A stretch of DNA of 64,000 nucleotides, from positions 2,251,585 to 2,315,584 of the forward strand of contig NZ_CP029256.1 in assembly GCF_003628755.1 (NCBI RefSeq), in the 5' to 3' direction. The number at the start of each line of letters is the position of its first letter. The first letter of the stretch is position 1. This stretch comes from Christensenella minuta (lineage in GTDB: Bacteria > Bacillota > Clostridia > Christensenellales > Christensenellaceae). The notes under the pieces were generated by a model. That model was not told where the DNA came from and made no database searches. It saw only the letters and a program-made list of their open reading frames with translations. Shown here one piece after another: positions 1 through 9,776 of this stretch. Position numbers and translations under genes: made by a program.

Positions 1-3000
1 TTCCGGCGCGGTGTATCCCTGCGCGGCAGTCACCGTCTTTTCCACATTCAGCGGACGGTATGCCTCGTAGCGGTTGGTGAACGAAACGTTTGTGGTCGGC
101 ATTAGGGCCGTGCTGGTCGTGATCGTGCCGCTGTACGTGCCCGAGCTTGGGCTTGTGATCGTATAATCCGCCTTGGGCGTTTCCGTGATCTCGTACCGCC
201 AGCCCTTCACCACCTGCGGGAATTCCGCATACTGGGCCGCTTTCAGGGTAAGCTTTCCGTTTTCGTCCGTCGCAAACGGGCCGCCCTCCGTGATCTCTGT
301 TCCGTTTGACCGGTACAGCCTGTATTCCTGGTTTGCGTACGGAGCCATCGTATTCGCCGTTTTGCCCAGCTTAACGGTAAATTCAAACGTGTCGTCCGTG
401 GGTGCGTCCGCCCCGCCCGAAAGCTTGGTCACGTTCTTGGTGAGCCGCAGCTTGGCAAGGTTCCCGATATAGTCGTTGACAAATTCCGCGTTCTGCGGAT
501 TATCCTTGTCGAGCGTTCCCGCCGCGGCGCCGCCCTCCGGCGAAACGATGGTATTGCCCGTCATCGTTGCTTCCGTCACGCTGTATGCCGCCTTGTTGTC
601 CATGCGGCTGAATACGGCCATCTGGTTATGTTTGAGCGTAAAGATGCCGTCCGAATCCGTTGCCCATGTGCCTGAGACCGCCGTGGGGCTTGCCGGATCG
701 CTGATATCATACAGCGTATATTCCACGGGGCCATATGGCGCGCCGTTCTGCAGCAGCGTGAAAGTAAAATTCACGCCGTCAAGATCAAGGCCCTTCGCCT
801 GCTTGGAAACACGCAGCTCCGCCGCCTCGAACAGCTCCACGGTCACGGCGTTGCCGAGCGTAGTCTCTGTTTTGGTTTCCCCCGTCGACGCGGTGAATTC
901 GTTGATCCACGCCGGGTTGTTGTATGCGTGGATGGTCGGTTCCGTAAGCGTATCCGGCGCCTTCATATTGAGCGCGATATACGTGCCTTCAAGAGGCGCG
1001 AATACATATTCTGAGCCGTCCACCTTCTTGGAAAGGTCTACGGCCACCGCCTTTACCGCGCTCATATCATCGGGTTTTGCCGTCGTCCATCCGGAGGCAG
1101 CGTCGGAAAGGTCGTACGCCGCGTCCGCCTTGGTGGAATAATAGACCACCGGGTCGATCCCCTTGCGCCTCGGCATGGTGGTATCTACAGAATCCAGCGT
1201 GCCCTGCCAGTAGGTGCCGTCGAACACGATGTCGTCCACGCCTGCGCGGTCGAGCGCCGCGCGCTCCAGGCGGTCAAAGATCACAACGCTTTTCATCGTG
1301 CCTCCGTCTGTATTCTGTACCTGCAGGCGGTAGGTATACGCTTCACCCGTCGCCACGCGCGCGCTTTCATCATACACCGCGAACTTGTCCGCGGCCTCTT
1401 TCACCGTTTTGGTAATGCCCGTCGCCGTCGCCACCGTGATGTCGATCGTCGAGCTGGCGTACGCGTACTGGGTATTCATTTCCTCCGTATCGCCGTTTTC
1501 ATTCAAATCGGCAAAATACGAAGTTCCGCTGTCGTCCTTGCCCACGCCGGAGGGAGCGTTCGCGCCGCTGTCCGGCCGTACATATTCGCTGCTGCTGTAT
1601 TGATTGCCTACGCCAAGGAAGGCGCCCTCCTGCGGCTGCCACGCCGAATCGTTTTCCTTGCCGTTCGCCGTCTTGTAATCCGTGTAGCGGTAATAAGCCC
1701 CCAGCTTTACGGAAAGATTGAAGAACAGGCCGTCGTTGTAATAAGCCTCGCCATTATAGGTCGGGTTCGGGTTGAATTCCGTATGCACATACACTTTGAC
1801 CATTGTGCGCCCGGTGCCCTTGTAGTCCTCGATTACATCGTACGACGTGACGGTCACGTCGTCGTTCGAGAGGAAATAGGTCCGGGTGCTGGTGTTGTTG
1901 TAGCCGCTCGTCGCCGTAATGGCCACGTTCGGGTCGAACACATACCCCTCCGGCAGCAGGTCGTAAAACACCCAGTCCTTCTGCGTCCAGCCAAGCTGTT
2001 CCAAGGTTGCGCCGCCCGCGTCCTTCAGCTGCTGAAAGGTCACCGTGTTGTAATACGAAGACGAGTTTGCGTAATAGTTATACCGCATCGTCTGCGACCC
2101 GGTCAGCGTGATGTTCGCCTTGACCTGGCTGTTTGTTTTATCATTCGTCAGGCTCACCGACTTGGTGTGCCCGTTCACCGTATACATCGGCACAAAGTAT
2201 TTATTCGCGTTGTATTCACGCGAATATACCTGCGAACCGTTCAGCTCGATATAGTTATCGGAATAGTTCTGGAAGGTGATACGGTTGCCCGTCGCGACGG
2301 AATCCTCCACCAGCGACTGGAAGACGGGCGAATCGCTCCTGATCGTCGTATGGATATACATATACACCTGCGACGACCACCCGTGGGAGGAATCCGACGC
2401 GTGCTCCGCTTTTACCTTGTAGATACCTTCCGCTTTGAGGGAATCCGGCACATAGGCCATCGCGTCGATCGTACCCTTTGAGGTATACCGTTCATGCCCG
2501 TTCAGGTCCGCGGCTTTTTGCACGAAATTTTCATAGGGAATTTCCCCCGCCTCCTGCCATGTGCCCGGAGCCGCCCCCGTCTGCACGTAAAGCTTGACCG
2601 GGTTTCCCGTCGGGGAATAGAAGTTGGAGTAATCCGACATCTCCTGGCTTTCATCGATAATCCAAAGGAGATCTGCTATACTGACCGCCCAACTGGAAAT
2701 ATAGTAATCCTCAGGCCCGAGGGCCACATTGTTGGCAAACATCCTCCCGTCCTCGGCCACAACGTTCATCTTGCTGTTTTCCGGGGTGGGGATGCTGTTT
2801 TCATTTAAATATTTCCGTCCGTACGCGTACGTATAAAAATTTGTTTTGCTGTATCCGTTGTTGACCGTCGAAACGTTGCTGTACGACATGTCAAAGTCCT
2901 GGCCGTTGTCCATAGACGTTTTCAGCACCGGGACGATATCGTTGTTGCCGTTGGTGCTTTTATACGTGTAATACAGGCTGCCCGTAGGCCGCGGCGGCGT

Positions 3001-4872
3001 CCATTCCACGATCGGCACCGTCACGGATTTTTCCTGCGTACTGGTGATTCCGTCGTCCACGCCGGTCAGCTCCACCTTAAAGTTGTTTTCCACGCTCGAA
3101 CCCGTCTGGTATTGGTCCTTGGGAAAGCGGACGACGGCATAGAAATACGCGGTGCTGTAAGCCGAATTCGTGAGGTAATCGCGATAGCTTGAGCTATATG
3201 TGCTCAGCAGGCGGTTGTAATCAAATGTTAATGTATCATCGGTCAGGTCCCACCAGCCCGCTTGGGCGCTTGCCGAAGTCCCCGAGCCCAGCCTTCCCGT
3301 ATAGCCGCCTACCAGCTCGCCGCCCGTACCCGGGAGCTCCGTCAGCTTAACGTTATAGGGCTGCGTGAAGTTGACGTTATAGCGCATCTGGTATACCACA
3401 TACCAATAATCGTCGAAATCGTCCGGCTTATCCTGCCCCGTGAGGTTCGGCGCATAGCTCTGCACCGTGCTCCAGTTCGCGACCTTGCCGCCGTTTGCGA
3501 CTACCTTGGCGGCGGACGTTACCTCCGCTGACGTATCGATGCTGCCCGTGATGGCATTGCTGTCCGGCCGCTCTTCGCCCTTGGTCGTAAGCTTTGCCGC
3601 AAAGCCGAAGTCCGTCTCGTCCACAACGCCCATCGCATCCACCGACCACGCGATCTGGATCAGGTTGTTGCCTCCCGCCTTGATCGCCTTGCAGTTGGTG
3701 AGGAGCACGTCGCCCGTCTCCGGGTCGACCGTATAGTTGAAATCCGACGCGGCGATCATGCCTGGCGCCAGCGGCACGCCGATATCCGTAAAGTTGCAGT
3801 TCGCGCCGTTCATCGGCGTGCCCGCGCGGTAAGTAAGCAGGGTCTGCGGGATGCGGATCACAACCTCGCCGACGGCGTAATCCGTATTATTGGAAAACGT
3901 CACCTGTGCCTTGATCGTCTTTTTCGTCGTATTATTCCAGCCTTCAAGCGAAAGATCGTTATCCGACTTGGTACCCGGCAGGCTGTCGTACGCGATCCAC
4001 TTAAGTTCAAATTTATAATTTTCCGTTTCTCCGCCTTCGGCAGGTTCCTCCTCCGGCGCTTCCGCAAGCTCATTCATTTCCGGCGCTTCCGCCGCAGGGG
4101 ATTTTTCCTGCTGAGCTTCCGTTTCCGGCTCCGCCGTGTTCTGCCGCAGCTCAAGCTGCGCCGTCCCGCCCTCCTGCGTCACGGTACCCGTTGCGGAAAC
4201 GCCGCCCTCCGTATTCAGCGCCAGAACCGCCGTATTCTCCAGCGTTCCGTTATTTTCCGGGACGACAAAGGAGAAGCCCTCTTTCGCGCTTCCTTCAAGG
4301 ACGTATCCGGTTCCGTCGGCAATGTTTTCAAACAGCGCCGCGCGGCCCGTCTCCATGACGAGCTTTCCTTCCGGGCTGGTATAATATTCCCCTTCCAGCT
4401 CCTCGGCCGGGTCCTTCGTCACGTCAAACAGGCGGTATTGCCGGCCTGCGTACGCTTCGCCGCTTACCTTGAGCGTATACTCCGCCGTCTCTCCTTCGGG
4501 AACGGTTTCGCCTGTGATGGTATTGTAAATCCACAGGCTGCCCACAGCAGGCTCCGTCCCGTCCGTTTCCCCGGACGCTTCGGCGTCTGCCTGCGCGGAA
4601 GACTGCGGTTCCTCCGCGGCTGGCTCTTCCTCTGCGTCAGGCACCTGCTCGGCCTCTCCGCCGTCCTGCGCGGAAGCCTCGTTCGCGCTTTCCTCCGCCA
4701 CGGGCGTAGGGATAGGGCCGGTGTCCGTCTGTGCAAACACCGTAATCACGCTGCTGGCCGCAATGATAACCGCCAGGATCAGCAGGATCAGATTCCGCAC
4801 CCGTTTTTTTGTGGAGACCTTCTTGCTTTCCTGGATGTATTCTTCCTTCTTCGATTGCCAGTTCCCGTTCAT
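1..4872 (-). CDS. Giant repeat-containing surface protein, C-terminus outside window
   Basis: An open frame of 1,624 codons runs from an ATG at 4872 off the left edge, so the C-terminus, where an anchor would sit, is not visible. The start follows an AAAGGAGAG ribosome site. Residues about 24-47 form a basic-plus-hydrophobic signal or anchor segment ending near VFAQ. A Glu/Ala-rich linker follows to about residue 110, then a CnaB-like region ([12 protein letters not shown]). The middle is Tyr/Asn/Ser-rich beta-type sequence without cysteine clusters. Near the visible end three repeats start about every 125 residues: LRVSKQAKG (about 1352), LRLTKNVTK (about 1474) and LNVEKTVTA (about 1606). 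The pattern of a Lys near the start of a strand followed by FTFTLL or FEFTVKL resembles the DUF7601/SpaA class of isopeptide-forming pilin domains. It is the last gene of the operon headed at 8.5 kb and follows a signal peptidase gene. Adhesin or fibre function is inferred from architecture only. Confidence 0.85.
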
Positions 4873-4995
4873 CGTTTCTCTCCTTTGTCCTCTCGAACCT
4901 GAATCTATCGCACTTTCTTACTTATGGCAGGCCGTGCCCGCCGTGTATTTCTATCATCCGTCAGGCAATGCCTGCTGTTCTTTCCTCCCGGCCGC

Positions 4996-5589
4996 TCACA
5001 TCGGCCCGAAGCCTTCCAGGGGCCAAATCCGAAACACCACTTTCCCAAGGATCGTCGATTCCGGCACCATGCCCACAACCTCCCTGCGGCTGTCTACCGA
5101 ATGGTTGCGGTTGTCCCCTAAAAGAAACACCCGTCCCGGAGGCACCACAGCGGGAAAATCTATTTCTGCTTCCTCGCGTATTGCTTCCGTGATATAAGGC
5201 TCGTCGACCGCCTTGCCGTTGACGCTCACCGCGCCTGTCGCGGGATCGATGTCCACCGTGTCCCCCGCGAGCGCGACTATCCGCTTTACAAGATCGCCCT
5301 CCCCGATATCCAGTTCCGTCACGACGATATCGCCGTAATCCGGTTCATATCCGAGGGGGGAACACAGCACTACGTCGCCGCCGTGAAGCGTGGGCTTCAT
5401 CGACGCACCGGATACGGTCGCGATACGCAGGACGTAAATGTTGACCAGCACCACCGCCATAGCGACAAAAAGGATGCGGCCTATGATTTCCCCCACCTCT
5501 TTTCGCCGCTCCCGGCGCTGCTCGATCCGTTTTATTTCCGCATGTATTGCTTCAAGGCTTGGCCGCCTTTCGCGTCTTTCCTGAACCAA
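4996..5589 (-). CDS. lepB: Type I signal peptidase, likely dedicated to the adjacent surface protein
   Basis: The 197-residue protein has a charged cytoplasmic N-terminus (residues 1-35, very Arg/Glu rich), one membrane span (about 36-58) and the S26 catalytic motifs. These are SGASMKPTL with catalytic Ser63, DLVKRIVALAGD with the general-base Lys102, and GDNRNHSVDSR near residue 158. It cleaves Sec signal peptides on the outer face of the membrane. The start is TTG at 5589 after AAGGGAT; an in-frame TGA two codons upstream excludes a longer protein. It lies between the coiled-coil genes and the giant surface protein, an arrangement known from pilus operons where a local signal peptidase serves the cluster's own substrates. 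That pairing is inferred. Family assignment is firm. Confidence 0.95.
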   Translation of the reverse strand: MVQERRERRPSLEAIHAEIKRIEQRRERRKEVGEIIGRILFVAMAVVLVNIYVLRIATVSGASMKPTLHGGDVVLCSPLGYEPDYGDIVVTELDIGEGDLVKRIVALAGDTVDIDPATGAVSVNGKAVDEPYITEAIREEAEIDFPAVVPPGRVFLLGDNRNHSVDSRREVVGMVPESTILGKVVFRIWPLEGFGPM

Positions 5590-5622
5590 ATATCAATTAT
5601 CCCTTCGTAAATTCGTACCGGA

Positions 5623-6333
5623 TCACAGCGCTTCTTCCTCCGGCTGCCTGTTCAGCCTCTTGATGACCTTCAGCAGCTGCTTCAGCTGATCCGTACTGAG
5701 ACCCGGCTGGCCGCCGCCCTCCGTTTCAGGCCTCTTTCCATCGGCTTCCGCCTGCTGTGGCTCTTCCGCCGGCACCGCCGGAGGCTTTTCGCATCTCCCC
5801 TCGGCGCCGTATTCCTGGTGGGCCCTGCTGACGGCCGCCTGTATGCTGGAGAGCATCTCGAGGTTCTTCACCTTTACACGCTGCATCATAAGGGACGCTT
5901 CCTGCTGCGCCGCCTCCACGATCCGCGCGGCTTCACGCTGCGCCGTTTCCCGTGCCGACAAGGCTTCCTCCCGGCGTTTTTGTTCCAGCTGTTTCAGTAC
6001 CGAGACCTGTTCCTTCGCCTGCCGCGATGCTTCGCTCAGCTCCCGGGCAAAGCTTTCCACCGCCTGCCAGTTCGCAGGCTGGCTCTCCCGCTCGACCAGC
6101 CGTTTGTTGACCGCCTGAAGTGTGTCGACAAGTTCGCCGTTCTTGCGCAGCAAACTGTTTTTCTCCTGCTGAAGGGCGCTGTTTTCCGCCTCAAGGCCGC
6201 TTATCTTGTCTTTCAGGCGTTCGTTCTCCTGTTCCGTTTTTTCCAATTCCTCTTCCAGTTGTCCAAGCAGGATCATCAAGTCTCCCCGGTTCAGCTTTTG
6301 GAGTCTCTTTATTTCGTGCATTATCTCCGGCAT
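5623..6333 (-). CDS. Coiled-coil protein, paralogue of the gene upstream
   Basis: A 236-residue soluble protein with no signal peptide or membrane span. Residues about 5-180 are nearly continuous heptad sequence rich in Glu, Lys, Gln and Leu; the C-terminal 60 residues are Pro/Glu rich and end in a short Leu-rich helix (LKQLLKVIKRLNRQ). The N-terminus (LQKLNRGDLMILLGQLEEEL) aligns with residues 93 onward of the neighbouring 367-aa protein (QLKKIGKNDLLRLLQ), so the two are paralogues. Both contain an A/R/E helix similar to DivIVA or ATP synthase b-subunit coils (REAARIVEAAQQEA). Start chosen at 6333 because AAAGGAG lies 7-8 nt upstream. The next gene, the signal peptidase, is 33 nt away. Function unknown; a cytoplasmic scaffold for the surface machinery is an inference. 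Confidence 0.75.
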   Translation of the reverse strand: MPEIMHEIKRLQKLNRGDLMILLGQLEEELEKTEQENERLKDKISGLEAENSALQQEKNSLLRKNGELVDTLQAVNKRLVERESQPANWQAVESFARELSEASRQAKEQVSVLKQLEQKRREEALSARETAQREAARIVEAAQQEASLMMQRVKVKNLEMLSSIQAAVSRAHQEYGAEGRCEKPPAVPAEEPQQAEADGKRPETEGGGQPGLSTDQLKQLLKVIKRLNRQPEEEAL

Positions 6334-6359
6334 GGAAATCTCCTTTCATGCCCCTGCGG

Positions 6360-7463
6360 TCAATTCCCGGGCTGCTGTGTTTTATTTGTGATATCGTCCA
6401 TCGCGCTTTTGATCTCGTCGTTTAAATTTGCCGTGAATTTATCGACCTCTTCCAAAAACGCCTCGTATTGCGCATATTCCTGCGTGCCCGTTCCCAGGGC
6501 CGGGCTGGCGGGCTGGCCGGTGTCTGCCGCCGCGGACGGGACCGTTTCCTGAATGTCCAGCCTCTCGGATACGGCCACCGCGGACGCGGGCGGCGGAGTT
6601 TCCGCCGCGTTTCCTCCGGAGCCGAGTATTTCGTTCAGGTGCGGCACCCTCCCAAGCTCTTCCGTCTGCGGCTGCACAGGCGCTCCCGGCAGCTCTTCCA
6701 TTTCTCCCTTTTGTTCAAAGGCCCCCCGCGCACCGACGAGCATCCGGTCGATCTCGTCCTGCAGGGTCTTCAACACATTTGTACTCGCCGCCTTCATCCG
6801 CTGTGCGCCCGTCTTTGCCTGGGTAAGGATCTGTTCGGCTCTGCCGCGCGCCGCTTCGACGATTTTGTCCGCTTCACGCTGCCTGTCCGCCTCCAACTCC
6901 CGGATACGCGCGATATATTGGTCGGCGGTTTTCTGCGCCGCTTCCATTACGCCGTTTACCTGAAGCATGGATTCCGCGAGTGATCCCGGCTCGGTATAGC
7001 TGGTCCGCAGCTTTCTTTTTTCTTCTTCCAACTCCCCAATCAGATTTTTCAGCTCCTGTATCTTTTTTTCCCCCGCCTCATTCTCCGCTTTCAGCTTGCG
7101 GTTTTCGTCGTCGCATTCCTGCAAGAGGCGAAGCAGGTCGTTTTTCCCTATTTTTTTTAATTGTTGAAATTCCATCCGTTCTTTCATACCGAGTCCCTTT
7201 CCTGATTGGTTTATTGTGGCGGCGGGGCGTGTCTTCTCCTCCCTGCCGCTTATTTCCCATGCGATCTTCCGCGCAAATTCTTCCTTTAGTTCGGCAATCC
7301 TGCTTTTATATAGTCCGTCAAGGCATTGCAGGGCGTCGATCACACGTTTTTTGTTATATCCGAGCAGCGCTGTCGGCAAGACGAGCATCCTGAAATACTG
7401 TGCGATTTCCGGATAATCTCCCGGTTCCTGCGGCACCTGCGGCGGCCGGGGCCTGCCAGCCAT
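6360..7463 (-). CDS. DivIVA-like plus coiled-coil protein
   Basis: A 367-residue protein. Residues about 28-70 (LLGYNKKRVIDALQCLDGLY) recall the N-terminal GY..xxV..FL..V..xY pattern of DivIVA/GpsB, the part that in those families docks to curved membrane. Residues 93-290 form a long coiled coil homologous to the 236-aa downstream protein; the last 80 residues are Pro/Ala rich with a terminal amphipathic helix. The start at 7463 overlaps the stop of the upstream 52-aa gene as TGATG, implying translational coupling. A second start at 7187 (residue 93) has a good GGAAAGG site and matches the paralogue's N-terminus, so a short 275-aa form may also be made, or two ancestral genes have fused. DivIVA similarity is by eye and modest. 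Confidence 0.75.
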   Translation of the reverse strand: MAGRPRPPQVPQEPGDYPEIAQYFRMLVLPTALLGYNKKRVIDALQCLDGLYKSRIAELKEEFARKIAWEISGREEKTRPAATINQSGKGLGMKERMEFQQLKKIGKNDLLRLLQECDDENRKLKAENEAGEKKIQELKNLIGELEEEKRKLRTSYTEPGSLAESMLQVNGVMEAAQKTADQYIARIRELEADRQREADKIVEAARGRAEQILTQAKTGAQRMKAASTNVLKTLQDEIDRMLVGARGAFEQKGEMEELPGAPVQPQTEELGRVPHLNEILGSGGNAAETPPPASAVAVSERLDIQETVPSAAADTGQPASPALGTGTQEYAQYEAFLEEVDKFTANLNDEIKSAMDDITNKTQQPGN

Positions 7464-7621
7464 CAGAATTTCCCCACGACGTTCTCGTCCTGCCTGCTGG
7501 TGAAAACGCCGCTGATCCCGTCCATGTCCCCGAGTTTCCTGCGGGTGATGTATTTTATAACCACGCCTGCCGCCGTAATGCCCGCAAGCAGCAGCAGTCC
7601 GATCATTTCCAGTTGATTCAT
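7463..7621 (-). CDS. Small single-span membrane protein (52 aa)
   Basis: A 52-codon gene starting with MNQLEMIGLLLLAGITAAG. Residues about 5-22 make one membrane span, followed by a basic stretch (KYITRRK) and a short polar tail ending VVGKF, so the tail is predicted cytoplasmic. Its TGA stop shares a base with the ATG of the DivIVA-like gene (TGATG) and its start lies 12 nt beyond the stop of the exported Pro-Thr-repeat protein. This tight packing on one strand supports expression as part of the operon. No family recognised. A membrane anchor or small partner for the coiled-coil proteins is inferred only from position. Confidence 0.6.
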   Translation of the reverse strand: MNQLEMIGLLLLAGITAAGVVIKYITRRKLGDMDGISGVFTSRQDENVVGKF

Positions 7622-7633
7622 CCCTGTTTCCCC

Positions 7634-8512
7634 TTATTTCTTTTTGCTGTTATACCAACGGATCGCTCCGATATCCTTTGCAATACTGATGCCGAACAGT
7701 GCTCCGCTCGCCCCGGCTCCGCCAAACAACATGATCGCAAGCGGCGTCCATTCGTCCGGTTCCCCGTTTTCTTCCTGTACGGCGGGTTCCGGTTCCTGCT
7801 CCGCCGCCGGCGCTTCCTCCGGCTTCGCGCCGGGAACGAACGGCGGTTGCGCATCATGTGCCGGATCCTGCGTCCCTGTCGGCTCCTGTGTCCGTTCCGG
7901 TATTGGTTCCCGTGCCGTCCGCGGTGGCGGGGCCTGGATTGGCTGCGGTACCGCCGCTGGCGTTGGCTCCGGCGTTCTCTCCGGTGTTGGCTCCGGCTCC
8001 GGCGTCGGTGTTGGCTCGGGCGTCGGTGTTGGCTCGGGCGTCGGTGTTGGCTCGGGCGTCGGTGTTGGCTCCGGCTCCGGCGTCGGCTGCGGGCCCGGTT
8101 CGGTGATGTGAACCGTGATTTCCACATAATTCTGCTGTCCGTCGTCCGCGTGCAGATAGAGCGTCACCGGATAATCCCCCGGCTCCTGCCCGTCCGCCAA
8201 AGCGCCGAGTTCCGCCCGTTCAAAAGTCCCTTCATAAGGAGCGAGGCCTTCCATATGCCGGATGACGGCCCCCGACCGTTCAATTACCGCTTGGTCCAGC
8301 AGTCCTTCCCGTTCCAGCTCATATGCTTCCTGCCCGGTCATCGCAACGTCCCATACCTGGAAACAAAAATCCGGCCAGTCAACATGGTGATAGCCATCCT
8401 TCTGCATTGCCAAGGCGGAAAACGGAAAGCCCAGGCATAACAGGAATGCGATGCATACCGCGATGAATTTATAATGCCTTTGCTTTTTGATCGGAACCGC
8501 TCCCTTCTGCAA
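7634..8512 (-). CDS. Exported Pro-Thr-Glu repeat protein with C-terminal membrane span; start uncertain
   Basis: The protein has a signal sequence (KKQRHYKFIAVCIAFLLC, then GFPFSALA), a globular part of about 110 residues (DWPDFCFQVWDVAMTG to VEITVHITEPG), a PTPEPT repeat tract, a Pro/Glu-rich linker, and a C-terminal span (LAIMLFGGAGASGALFGISIA) with a basic tail (YNSKKK). So it appears anchored and projecting through the wall. The start is not obvious. The only good -10 box (TATACT, 8533-8538) lies downstream of the farther ATG at 8596. The best ribosome site, AGAAGGGAG at 8500-8508, is placed 8 nt before an ATC codon at 8491, where translation would give I-KKQRHYKF. The upstream TTG at 8512 is the nearest conventional start and is given here. 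It is the first gene of the envelope operon. No named family recognised. Confidence 0.7.
   Translation of the reverse strand: MQKGAVPIKKQRHYKFIAVCIAFLLCLGFPFSALAMQKDGYHHVDWPDFCFQVWDVAMTGQEAYELEREGLLDQAVIERSGAVIRHMEGLAPYEGTFERAELGALADGQEPGDYPVTLYLHADDGQQNYVEITVHITEPGPQPTPEPEPTPTPEPTPTPEPTPTPEPTPTPEPEPTPERTPEPTPAAVPQPIQAPPPRTAREPIPERTQEPTGTQDPAHDAQPPFVPGAKPEEAPAAEQEPEPAVQEENGEPDEWTPLAIMLFGGAGASGALFGISIAKDIGAIRWYNSKKK
7990..8066 (-). repeat. Tandem 18-bp repeat encoding PTPEPT
   Basis: Inside the exported Pro-Thr protein an 18-bp unit, GGCTCGGGCGTCGGTGTT on the plus strand, occurs three times in perfect tandem at 8013-8030, 8031-8048 and 8049-8066, with degenerate copies on both sides. Each unit encodes six residues (PTPEPT). 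In-frame gain or loss would change the length of the extracellular stalk without breaking the frame. Confidence 0.9.
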
Positions 8513-8532
8513 GCACGCCGCTATTTTTGTGT

Positions 8533-8538
8533 AGTATA
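8533..8538 (-). promoter_or_regulatory. -10 box of the envelope operon promoter
   Basis: TATACT on the minus strand, predicted start near 8526, about 35 nt before the AGAAGGGAG-ATC initiation region. The hexamer 17 bp upstream is poor, as expected for a promoter that needs an activator. It is the only clear promoter ahead of the five-gene envelope run. Confidence 0.5.
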
Positions 8539-8565
8539 GTTTTACAACAAAGCGTTCCTTTTTTG

Positions 8566-8603
8566 CACGAATCTGCCACAGACGACCTGTTTGCACACAC
8601 GAA
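8566..8603 (-). promoter_or_regulatory. Direct repeats upstream of envelope promoter, possible LytTR sites
   Basis: Two direct copies of TTCGTG (minus strand) at 8598-8603 and 8566-8571, each next to a GCAAA run, have starts 32 bp apart, about three helical turns. The nearer copy abuts the weak -35 region. LytTR activators commonly bind paired direct repeats in this position, and an orphan LytTR gene ends at 8623, only 20 bp upstream. The link is inferred. Confidence 0.35.
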
Positions 8604-8622: not shown

Positions 8623-9336
8623 TCACAGCGTGCACACCGCCCTGACAGCTTTCATATAGGCCCTTCCGACCGGCACCAGCGCACCGTTCAGCAGTACGAT
8701 CTGCTTAAGTCCCGCGTTGAACTGCGCGATCTTTTCCACCGCCACAATATATGAGCGGTGCGTCCGGATAAAGCCCTGGCTTGCGAGCATATTCTCGATC
8801 TTGCCAAAGGTGGAATAAAATCCGAAGCTTAAGTCCCTGTAATATACGTTGATGCAGTGGCCCTGCGCCTCGAAATAATGGATGTCCCTCACAAACACCT
8901 TGCGGCTCTCCCCCGCGCAGGAGAAGATCAGCGTTTCCCGTTTTTTCTTTCCGCATTTTTCATGCGCCCGGAGGAAAATCTGTTCAAACCGTTCCCGGGG
9001 CGTATCGTCCTTGACTACATAATGGAACGCATCCACGTCGAACGCCCGTAAAATGACGCTGGCCGTCCTGCTGGAAGTGAGAAAGATAATCTCGCTCTCA
9101 ATCCCGCCCGCACGCAGCCTGTTTGCCGTTTCGATCCCGTCCATGCCCGGCATATCGATATCAAGGTATATAAGGTCCGGCTGCCTTTGTGGGTCTTCCA
9201 GTTCAAACAGCAGCTCTTTCCCGCTCAAATATGGATCTATCTTGAGTTCGATCCGGTGTTTCCCGCAGATGGAACTCAAGAGGTCTGTATACAGGAGGAT
9301 GTTTTCCCTGCAATCGTCACAAAGCGCTATGTTCAC
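8623..9336 (-). CDS. LytTR-family response regulator (orphan)
   Basis: A 237-residue AgrA/LytR-type regulator. Residues 1-120 form a receiver with the acidic pocket (CDD at 6-8) and phosphoacceptor Asp59 in YLDIDMPGMDGIE. Residues about 135-237 form a LytTR DNA-binding domain (DIHYFEAQGHCINVYY, GFIRTHRSYIVAVEKI, GALVPVGRAYMKAV). The start is GTG at 9336 after AAGGAGAG; an upstream in-frame ATG at 9444 would run back into the preceding gene. It lies 20 nt behind an Rrf2 gene and directly ahead of the envelope operon promoter, so that operon is its most likely target. No partner kinase is adjacent. Confidence 0.92.
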   Translation of the reverse strand: MNIALCDDCRENILLYTDLLSSICGKHRIELKIDPYLSGKELLFELEDPQRQPDLIYLDIDMPGMDGIETANRLRAGGIESEIIFLTSSRTASVILRAFDVDAFHYVVKDDTPRERFEQIFLRAHEKCGKKKRETLIFSCAGESRKVFVRDIHYFEAQGHCINVYYRDLSFGFYSTFGKIENMLASQGFIRTHRSYIVAVEKIAQFNAGLKQIVLLNGALVPVGRAYMKAVRAVCTL

Positions 9337-9356
9337 TGGCTCTCTCCTTGAAAAGT

Positions 9357-9776
9357 TTATTCGGGCTTCTTTGCCGCCCTGTCCAGCAGCTGCCGGATTG
9401 TCACGCTGGCAAAGCTCTCCTCCAGCTTTTTCTGCAAATCGCAATAAAATTCATGTACCGGACAATATTCCGAAAGAAAGCATGAATTGATTTTTCCATG
9501 CTCGAGGCAATGGTTGATCTTGATCGACCCCTCCGTCACCTCCATGATGTCAAGAAGGCTGATATCCTCCGGCCGCCGCATCAGGCTGTAACCGCCGGAT
9601 ACTCCCATGTGTCCGGCAATCAGCCTTGCGCTGCGCAGTTTGTTGGCCGTCGCCAGCAAAGATTTTTTGGCGATTCCAATCTGCCCGGCAATCTCTCCGG
9701 CAGACGTAACCCGTCTGGTTTTGGAAAGATACATAATGATGCGGATTGCATAATCGGTTGTTCTTGTCAGTTGCAT
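9357..9776 (-). CDS. Rrf2-family transcriptional regulator
   Basis: A 139-residue winged-helix protein with the Rrf2 opening (MQLTRTTDYAIRIIMYLSK), recognition helix region (AGEIAGQIGIAKKSLLATAN) and wing (GGYSLMRRPEDISLLDI). Four cysteines follow in the region CLEHGKINSCFLSEYC plus one downstream (EFYC). Rrf2 members such as IscR and NsrR bind an iron-sulfur cluster through such cysteines, so redox or nitric-oxide sensing is plausible. Gene order Rrf2 then LytTR with a 20-nt gap suggests co-transcription. Targets are not evident. Confidence 0.92.
   Translation of the reverse strand: MQLTRTTDYAIRIIMYLSKTRRVTSAGEIAGQIGIAKKSLLATANKLRSARLIAGHMGVSGGYSLMRRPEDISLLDIMEVTEGSIKINHCLEHGKINSCFLSEYCPVHEFYCDLQKKLEESFASVTIRQLLDRAAKKPE

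Follow-up and report, generated by a model that had tools for sequence, protein, structure and literature searches.

In this study, we analyzed a window of 64,000 nucleotides of the Christensenella minuta genome (contig NZ_CP029256.1, genome bases 2251585-2315584; the source genome is a single contig of 2.97 Mb), which covers the 5' half of an operon of ~24 kb on the minus strand that extends past window base 1. The operon encodes coiled-coil proteins of a family here designated CC, a signal peptidase I with an N-terminal cytosolic tail, a giant surface protein and a sortase. Our analysis demonstrated that CC is a constant genomic partner of the tailed signal peptidase I. From sequence comparison we propose, with a probability of roughly 0.5, that the locus is a sortase-linked surface-fiber operon with its own export-focusing module, in which CC would dock on the peptidase tail and genus-specific DivIVA- and SepF-like parts would fix the site.

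Linkage of CC With a Tailed Signal Peptidase

The linkage between CC and the peptidase is the strongest evidence in the analysis and is genomic in kind. Specifically, a reciprocal search of 391 genomes of the class found CC (E below 1e-9) and the tailed peptidase in the same 22 genomes, about 6%, and never apart; the two genes lay on one contig in 22/22 and within 200 bases of each other in 18/22. The chance of such a coincidence is ~10^-35.7 on the assumption of independent genomes, which genomes are not. The peptidase of G249 gave a partial match and hence a lower score, with its tail kept. The next-ranked peptidase after the 22 belongs to G352, a genome without a CC match, and it starts with the CC motif MKKEDLKGLSREDLVDVLYDV (mean score for the likeness, 41 vs. 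24+/-2 in shuffles, reached in 0/500).

The tail of the CC-linked peptidases precedes the membrane helix and has the form P-x3-QLExELxRExYRxRY, which reads RPSLEAIHAEIKRIEQRRERR in the window. The motif is doubled in tandem in four loci (L040, L041, L055, and L056) and therefore fits the expectation for a docking motif. The operon peptidase is one of three signal peptidases in the genome and the sole one with such an N-terminal cytosolic tail, which supports the claim of an earlier note on this DNA that the operon has a signal peptidase of its own, a dedicated one. Its catalytic dyad lies in SGASMKPT and LVKRIVAL, and the Ser and Lys columns were invariant in the peptidase alignment; an inactive peptidase of the SipA type was ruled out, since both catalytic residues are kept.

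Two CC proteins, here named B and C, are encoded in the window, and the paralogy that the earlier note had read from their sequences held up, with a local score of 150 vs. 55+/-9 in free shuffles and 56+/-9 in heptad-position shuffles. The family is marked by the motifs MTEKELRKLSRxDLLEMLIxQ and AGSIAEAALxLNGVFEAAQxAAxQYLENI, and no Pfam or NCBIfam family was found for it. A scan of species-level genomes with a three-sequence alignment returned 229 CC relatives, and the best 80 of the 229 (loci L033-L112) came from Clostridia and a few Coriobacteriia. Among these 80 loci, a peptidase followed within 2 kb after CC in 71, where the usual sequence was CC, signal peptidase and giant LPXTG protein, in most cases with an LPXTG pilin and a class C sortase after it; the next open reading frame (ORF) was at least 600 amino acids (aa) long in 58/64 loci with room for it. 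In L064, L074, and L079, a pilus operon lay upstream of CC.

A degenerate receiver domain was observed in frame before CC in L036, L038, L040, L043, L046, L048, L051, L054, L056, and L070. The receiver of L040 matched Pfam Response_reg at 2.3e-7, and the segment that normally holds the phospho-acceptor reads like FTR. In the receiver-CC genes, an internal ATG has a ribosome site before it, so that a second, shorter product is possible. In addition, CC itself was considered as a DivIVA protein and rejected: Pfam and NCBIfam returned only sporadic coil matches, all about equally strong (DivIVA, HrpE, V-ATPase E, and SMC), and a profile comparison beat heptad shuffles but along the coil stretch only, at 5% probability, and was judged non-specific.

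Layout of the Operon

The earlier note had described five tightly packed genes and a giant gene on one strand, including a 52-aa protein with a membrane span and a TGATG coupling. All of this was confirmed, on the minus strand, and both the giant gene and the operon run beyond the window edge. Reading down the minus strand from window position 9444, the features are as follows (window positions).

8623-9444, minus strand: LytTR-type response regulator, 237 aa from an internal GTG and 273 aa from the first start (Pfam LytTR 2.9e-18, Response_reg 2.8e-14)
7634-8596, minus strand: 320-aa exported protein with a signal peptide, a ~100-aa domain, Pro-Thr-Glu repeats and a C-terminal membrane segment (ORF)
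7463-7621, minus strand: 52-aa membrane protein, TGATG-coupled to the 367-aa gene (ORF)
6360-7463, minus strand: 367-aa protein, whole (ORF)
7224-7463, minus strand: DivIVA/GpsB-like N-terminal domain of the 367-aa protein (its residues 1-80), remnant of an ancestral protein A (separate gene in G075 and G139, profile match)
6360-7223, minus strand: remainder of the 367-aa protein, which is coiled-coil protein B of the CC family, with motifs LKKIGKNDLLRLLQE and GSLAESMLQVNGVMEAAQ (separate 294-aa gene in G075, alignments)
5623-6333, minus strand: 236-aa coiled-coil protein C, paralog of B (homologs in all three operon-bearing congeners)
4996-5589, minus strand: signal peptidase I with the Ser and Lys dyad and the conserved cytosolic tail RPSLEAIHAEIKR (Pfam S26 7.4e-36, NCBIfam sigpep_I 4.3e-38)
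1-4872, minus strand: giant surface protein, N-terminal 1,624 residues of 4,909 aa (full gene at genome 2241727-2256456)

Beyond the window, the operon continues for ~5 kb past the giant gene with genes for a 700-aa protein, a class B sortase, an NlpC/P60 protein, a SepF paralog, and a 138-aa lipoprotein-like protein. Between the 320-aa gene at one end and the giant gene at the other, intergenic gaps measure 12 to 123 bases, with one overlap, the TGATG coupling at 7463 (GGAAATTCTGATGGC), which is kept in the congener G054; we infer one transcript for the whole operon. The LytTR-type response regulator, directly upstream, is likely the regulator of the operon, and it lies upstream of the operon in the congeners G054 and G139 as well. 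No RNA family or tRNA was found in the window, and promoter and terminator scans stayed at chance level.

The order of A, B, C, the 52-aa gene and the peptidase was preserved across four genomes despite diverged sequence. Homologs of the 320-aa protein, which has no LPXTG and no Pfam family, occurred in three congeners (7e-98 to 4e-70). The 52-aa protein has no Pfam or NCBIfam family and was seen only within the genus, in four genomes, with homologs in G139, G075, and G054 (the last from G054 DNA). The conserved neighborhood on which the reading of the earlier note depended was found, in that CC, peptidase and giant recur across Clostridia. The 52-aa protein and A occur in just four genomes, all from a single genus, to which two more distant DivIVA-like cases (L065 and L074) can be added.

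A Lineage-Specific Fusion With a DivIVA/GpsB-Like N-Terminus

Gene comparison within the genus indicates that the 367-aa protein arose by a lineage-specific fusion of the DivIVA-like A with the coiled-coil protein B. Two adjacent genes match it in G139 and G075, namely A (215 and 212 aa, respectively) and B (294 aa in G075), and in the window genome and G054 about the first 80 residues of A are joined to B. The segment GYNKKRVIDAL, from which the earlier note had suspected DivIVA, sits in the domain that the two congeners encode as a separate gene. The intact A of G139 weakly matches the C-terminal oligomerizing coil of DivIVA (E 0.012); this part has been lost from the window protein, with the coil of B in its place.

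The suspected likeness to DivIVA was supported by profile comparison. The Pfam DivIVA model (PF05103, gathering cut-off 28 bits) gave scores under the cut-off for the 367-aa protein (10.5 bits), the intact A of G139 (16) and a 166-aa protein of L065 (20.4). By hhalign, the N-termini of the genus aligned GY on GY with a narrow profile of housekeeping DivIVA and solved GpsB/DivIVA proteins (score 20.3, 0/300 column shuffles), and full-length A scored against a DivIVA/GpsB profile above all 120 heptad-preserving shuffles. Against a broadened DivIVA profile the score rose to 38 (93.7%, E 1.9e-7; shuffles 9.6+/-2.1, 0/150), this profile being partly selected in that its four added members were fetched with a profile of A, L065, and L074. 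That profile, run over 321 class genomes, drew just four further proteins, each starting with a motif of the K-x-S-x-x-GY type, and three of the four exceed the Pfam DivIVA cut-off. The L065 protein is an intermediate, which matches A (6e-5) and, from its N-terminus, Pfam DivIVA (5.3e-4).

Structure prediction by AlphaFold2 (AF2) placed helices of the N-terminal domain of the 367-aa protein at residues 18-27, 29-32, and 38-77 with an LLGYN loop, at low confidence; a second model gave helices at 18-33 and 38-71 around a loop at 34-37 (pLDDT, the predicted local confidence score, 63). Foldseek searches with the low-confidence models of the domain and of the whole 367-aa protein returned nothing useful. 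Altogether, a short helix, a GY loop and a long coiled-coil helix lie in register with DivIVA/GpsB members, and the N-terminus of the 367-aa protein is supported as DivIVA/GpsB-like.

Among the genomes of the taxonomic family, protein A was found in four only, all of one genus. The alignment, confined to the genus, was too narrow for a first class-wide search with A alone, which recovered no other relative at its N-terminus; out of four weak matches, three were FliH-like coils adjoining flagellar genes. DivIVA-like genes adjoin CC in two distant loci, L065 and L074. Between CC and the DivIVA-like gene of the former, an extra 140-aa signal peptidase-like protein was observed (L065:7465-7887). 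The cytoplasmic scaffold of the DivIVA kind that the earlier note had envisaged was therefore borne out as to the domain, which belongs to a lineage-specific fusion; the candidate for a broadly conserved scaffold is CC rather than A.

SepF and Other Division Paralogs

The SepF paralog at the end of the operon, here SepF2, lies outside the window and scored 76.8 bits for SepF (PF04472) against a gathering cut-off of 27. One other DivIVA and one other SepF were found in the genome, adjoining each other at 1.03 Mb. The operon thus adds a further DivIVA-like and a further SepF gene, which stand ~20 kb apart with secretion, giant and sortase genes between them. The cassette of NlpC/P60, SepF2, and lipoprotein genes was present in G000, G054, and G075; in G054 and G075 it stood on another contig than the operon start, and its link with the operon there is a candidate one. 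SepF and NlpC were rejected as general parts of CC operons, as none occurred in the 80 loci.

Two further SepF genes were observed in the genus. A congener without the operon, G031, carries a short SepF of 116 aa (L143, G031:C1:984044) beside the DUF2207 gene, which in the window is a neighbor of the operon; this short SepF may be left over from operon loss. In G075, a third SepF (L144, G075:C22) lies on a contig other than that of the operon, directly behind a pair of Rrf2 and LytTR regulators of the operon's type.

Giant Surface Protein and Sortase Parts

The giant protein of 4,909 aa carries a C-terminal FPKTG sorting signal, and the isopeptide-type repeats reported in the earlier note proved to be 12 DUF7601 and 8 DUF11 stretches. 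The 700-aa protein that follows it has Big_3 domains and MPQTG, and the operon sortase (Sortase 1.3e-11) has sortase B proteins as its nearest solved relatives; secreted proteins with FPKTG and MPQTG together with a linked sortase mark a sortase-dependent locus. No separate backbone pilin was recognized in the window operon; relatives carry a ~500-aa LPETG pilin and a class C sortase.

Most giants that follow the peptidase in L033-L112 have an unusual signal peptide, whose n-region is long and basic and ends in a core of the TTYALILPAITME type. On the same strand, ~3 kb past the operon end, a second SpaA/collagen-binding surface protein of 1,379 aa with PQTG was observed (L121:4450-8589, genome 2229449-2233588). 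Two 998-codon frames 25 kb apart (L031 and L032; genome 2676473 and 2701364) had identical match scores, and the former is similar to a phage tape-measure protein, a sign that parts of prophages may be duplicated or related here.

Proposed Mechanism and Alternatives

In the mechanism that we propose, CC would oligomerize through its coil and bind the peptidase tail, a docking that we infer from the linkage and the tail motif, and the peptidase would thereby cluster at the inner membrane face. The giant protein would be translocated, cleaved and handed to the dedicated sortase at this cluster. In Christensenella, the DivIVA/GpsB-like domain fused to B and the SepF paralog would tie the cluster to curved or septal membrane, and the fiber would appear at the septum or the new pole, where the NlpC/P60 protein may open the wall. 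It is a tentative further reading, held at somewhat less than even odds, that CC and the tailed peptidase form an undescribed secretion-placing module of Clostridia, which in Christensenella would be coupled to DivIVA-like and SepF paralogs to lay the fiber at a chosen site.

Several points weigh against the proposed mechanism. First, a Phe-Arg pair before GY serves membrane binding in Bacillus subtilis DivIVA. The residues at this place are LLGY, LFGY, and LVGY in A vs. FRGY in 2wuj (B. subtilis DivIVA), and membrane binding by the A-type domain appears doubtful because the pair is replaced, by Leu-Leu in the window protein. Second, SepF was found within 10 kb of CC in 0/80 loci and a DivIVA-like gene in 2/80, and septal or polar placement by them is therefore not the general function; G139 also carries the operon without a SepF paralog. 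Third, CC of Coriobacteriia (L103:10001-11005 and L104:7568-8656) was observed without a signal peptidase, upstream of a large M28-type peptidase-like membrane protein. In addition, Enterococcus faecalis pili are kept out of the septum (PMC10107303), and fibers therefore need not be septal.

Among the alternatives, the best survivor, possible but rather doubtful, is that CC acts as a cytosolic chaperone or pilot, which would keep a precursor of ~1,000 to 5,600 aa unfolded for SecA and the dedicated peptidase and would have no positional role, the DivIVA-like domain being a mere membrane tether. Such a role would suit the giant genes that follow CC in most loci and their common n-region, and it accounts for the wide distribution of CC without DivIVA or SepF. 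However, the genomic linkage, the motif in the tail and the fused G352 protein indicate the peptidase and not the precursor, and the DivIVA- and SepF-like additions are left without explanation. It is unlikely that CC binds the tail in order to switch cleavage by a signal, with the product timed rather than placed: the receiver domains in about ten loci and the LytTR regulator upstream of the operon agree with such gating, but most loci have no receiver, and the receiver-CC genes may also be read from an internal start that has a ribosome site of its own. An ordinary sortase pilus operon into which the DivIVA-like and SepF genes had been inserted as accidental hitchhikers seems improbable, for the lack of SepF in G139 and the confinement of A to one genus among the sampled genomes are offset by the gene order kept in four genomes with diverged sequence and by the DivIVA-like genes beside CC in two distant loci.

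Comparison With Known Systems

The VR-10B locus of Clostridium perfringens, described as comprising three pilins, a signal peptidase, a class B sortase, and a two-component system (PMC8088525), and the streptococcal FCT/PI-2 pilus loci resemble the operon in holding pilins, a signal peptidase or peptidase-like protein, and a dedicated sortase together (PMC8088525, PMC4049620, PMC3019223). Unlike here, no cytosolic coiled-coil, DivIVA-like or SepF gene is reported in the corresponding excerpts of these papers. Streptococcus pyogenes SipA, described there as having a signal peptidase fold and as essential for pilus polymerization (PMC4049620), shares that fold with the operon peptidase, which in contrast keeps Ser and Lys and has the tail common to its CC-linked relatives.

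In Staphylococcus aureus, SpsB is enriched at the septum and its cleavage is required for septal deposition of protein A, such that in SpsB/YSIRK trafficking the position and activity of the peptidase set where a sortase substrate appears (PMC11898559). SpsB is a housekeeping peptidase, whereas the operon peptidase is a dedicated paralog with candidate cytosolic partners encoded alongside. A tie between DivIVA and export has been described in that B. subtilis SecA can be cross-linked to DivIVA and that Listeria DivIVA is required for SecA2-dependent secretion (PMC3924036). Compared with DivIVA/GpsB (PF05103), the domain of the 367-aa protein has the in-register region around GY followed by a long coil, but it falls under the Pfam cut-off, is fused to CC and stands in a surface-fiber operon, with a separate housekeeping DivIVA elsewhere. 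Similarly, the operon has one paralog of each member of the housekeeping sepF-divIVA pair, although ~20 kb apart. No account of the operon's gene set was found in open-access full-text literature, subscription papers and preprints being outside this scope, in agreement with the earlier note, which knew of no described system with it. We regard the gene set as a variant sortase pilus locus, distinguished by a core partner that has no name and, within a single genus, by parts of division proteins.

The prior work considered here on how Gram-positive bacteria choose the cell site of a sortase-anchored protein concerns cocci. In the present operon, candidate positional factors and cargo are encoded together, and the question of placement is therefore testable by gene removal in one locus. 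Christensenella attracts interest as a human gut genus, and a DivIVA/SepF pair working outside division, if true, would mean that division parts are reused for surface display. CC has no family name, yet it is present in ~6% of the sampled class genomes, and the recurrence of CC, tailed peptidase and giant protein across gut Clostridia points to an undescribed partner for surface-fiber export.

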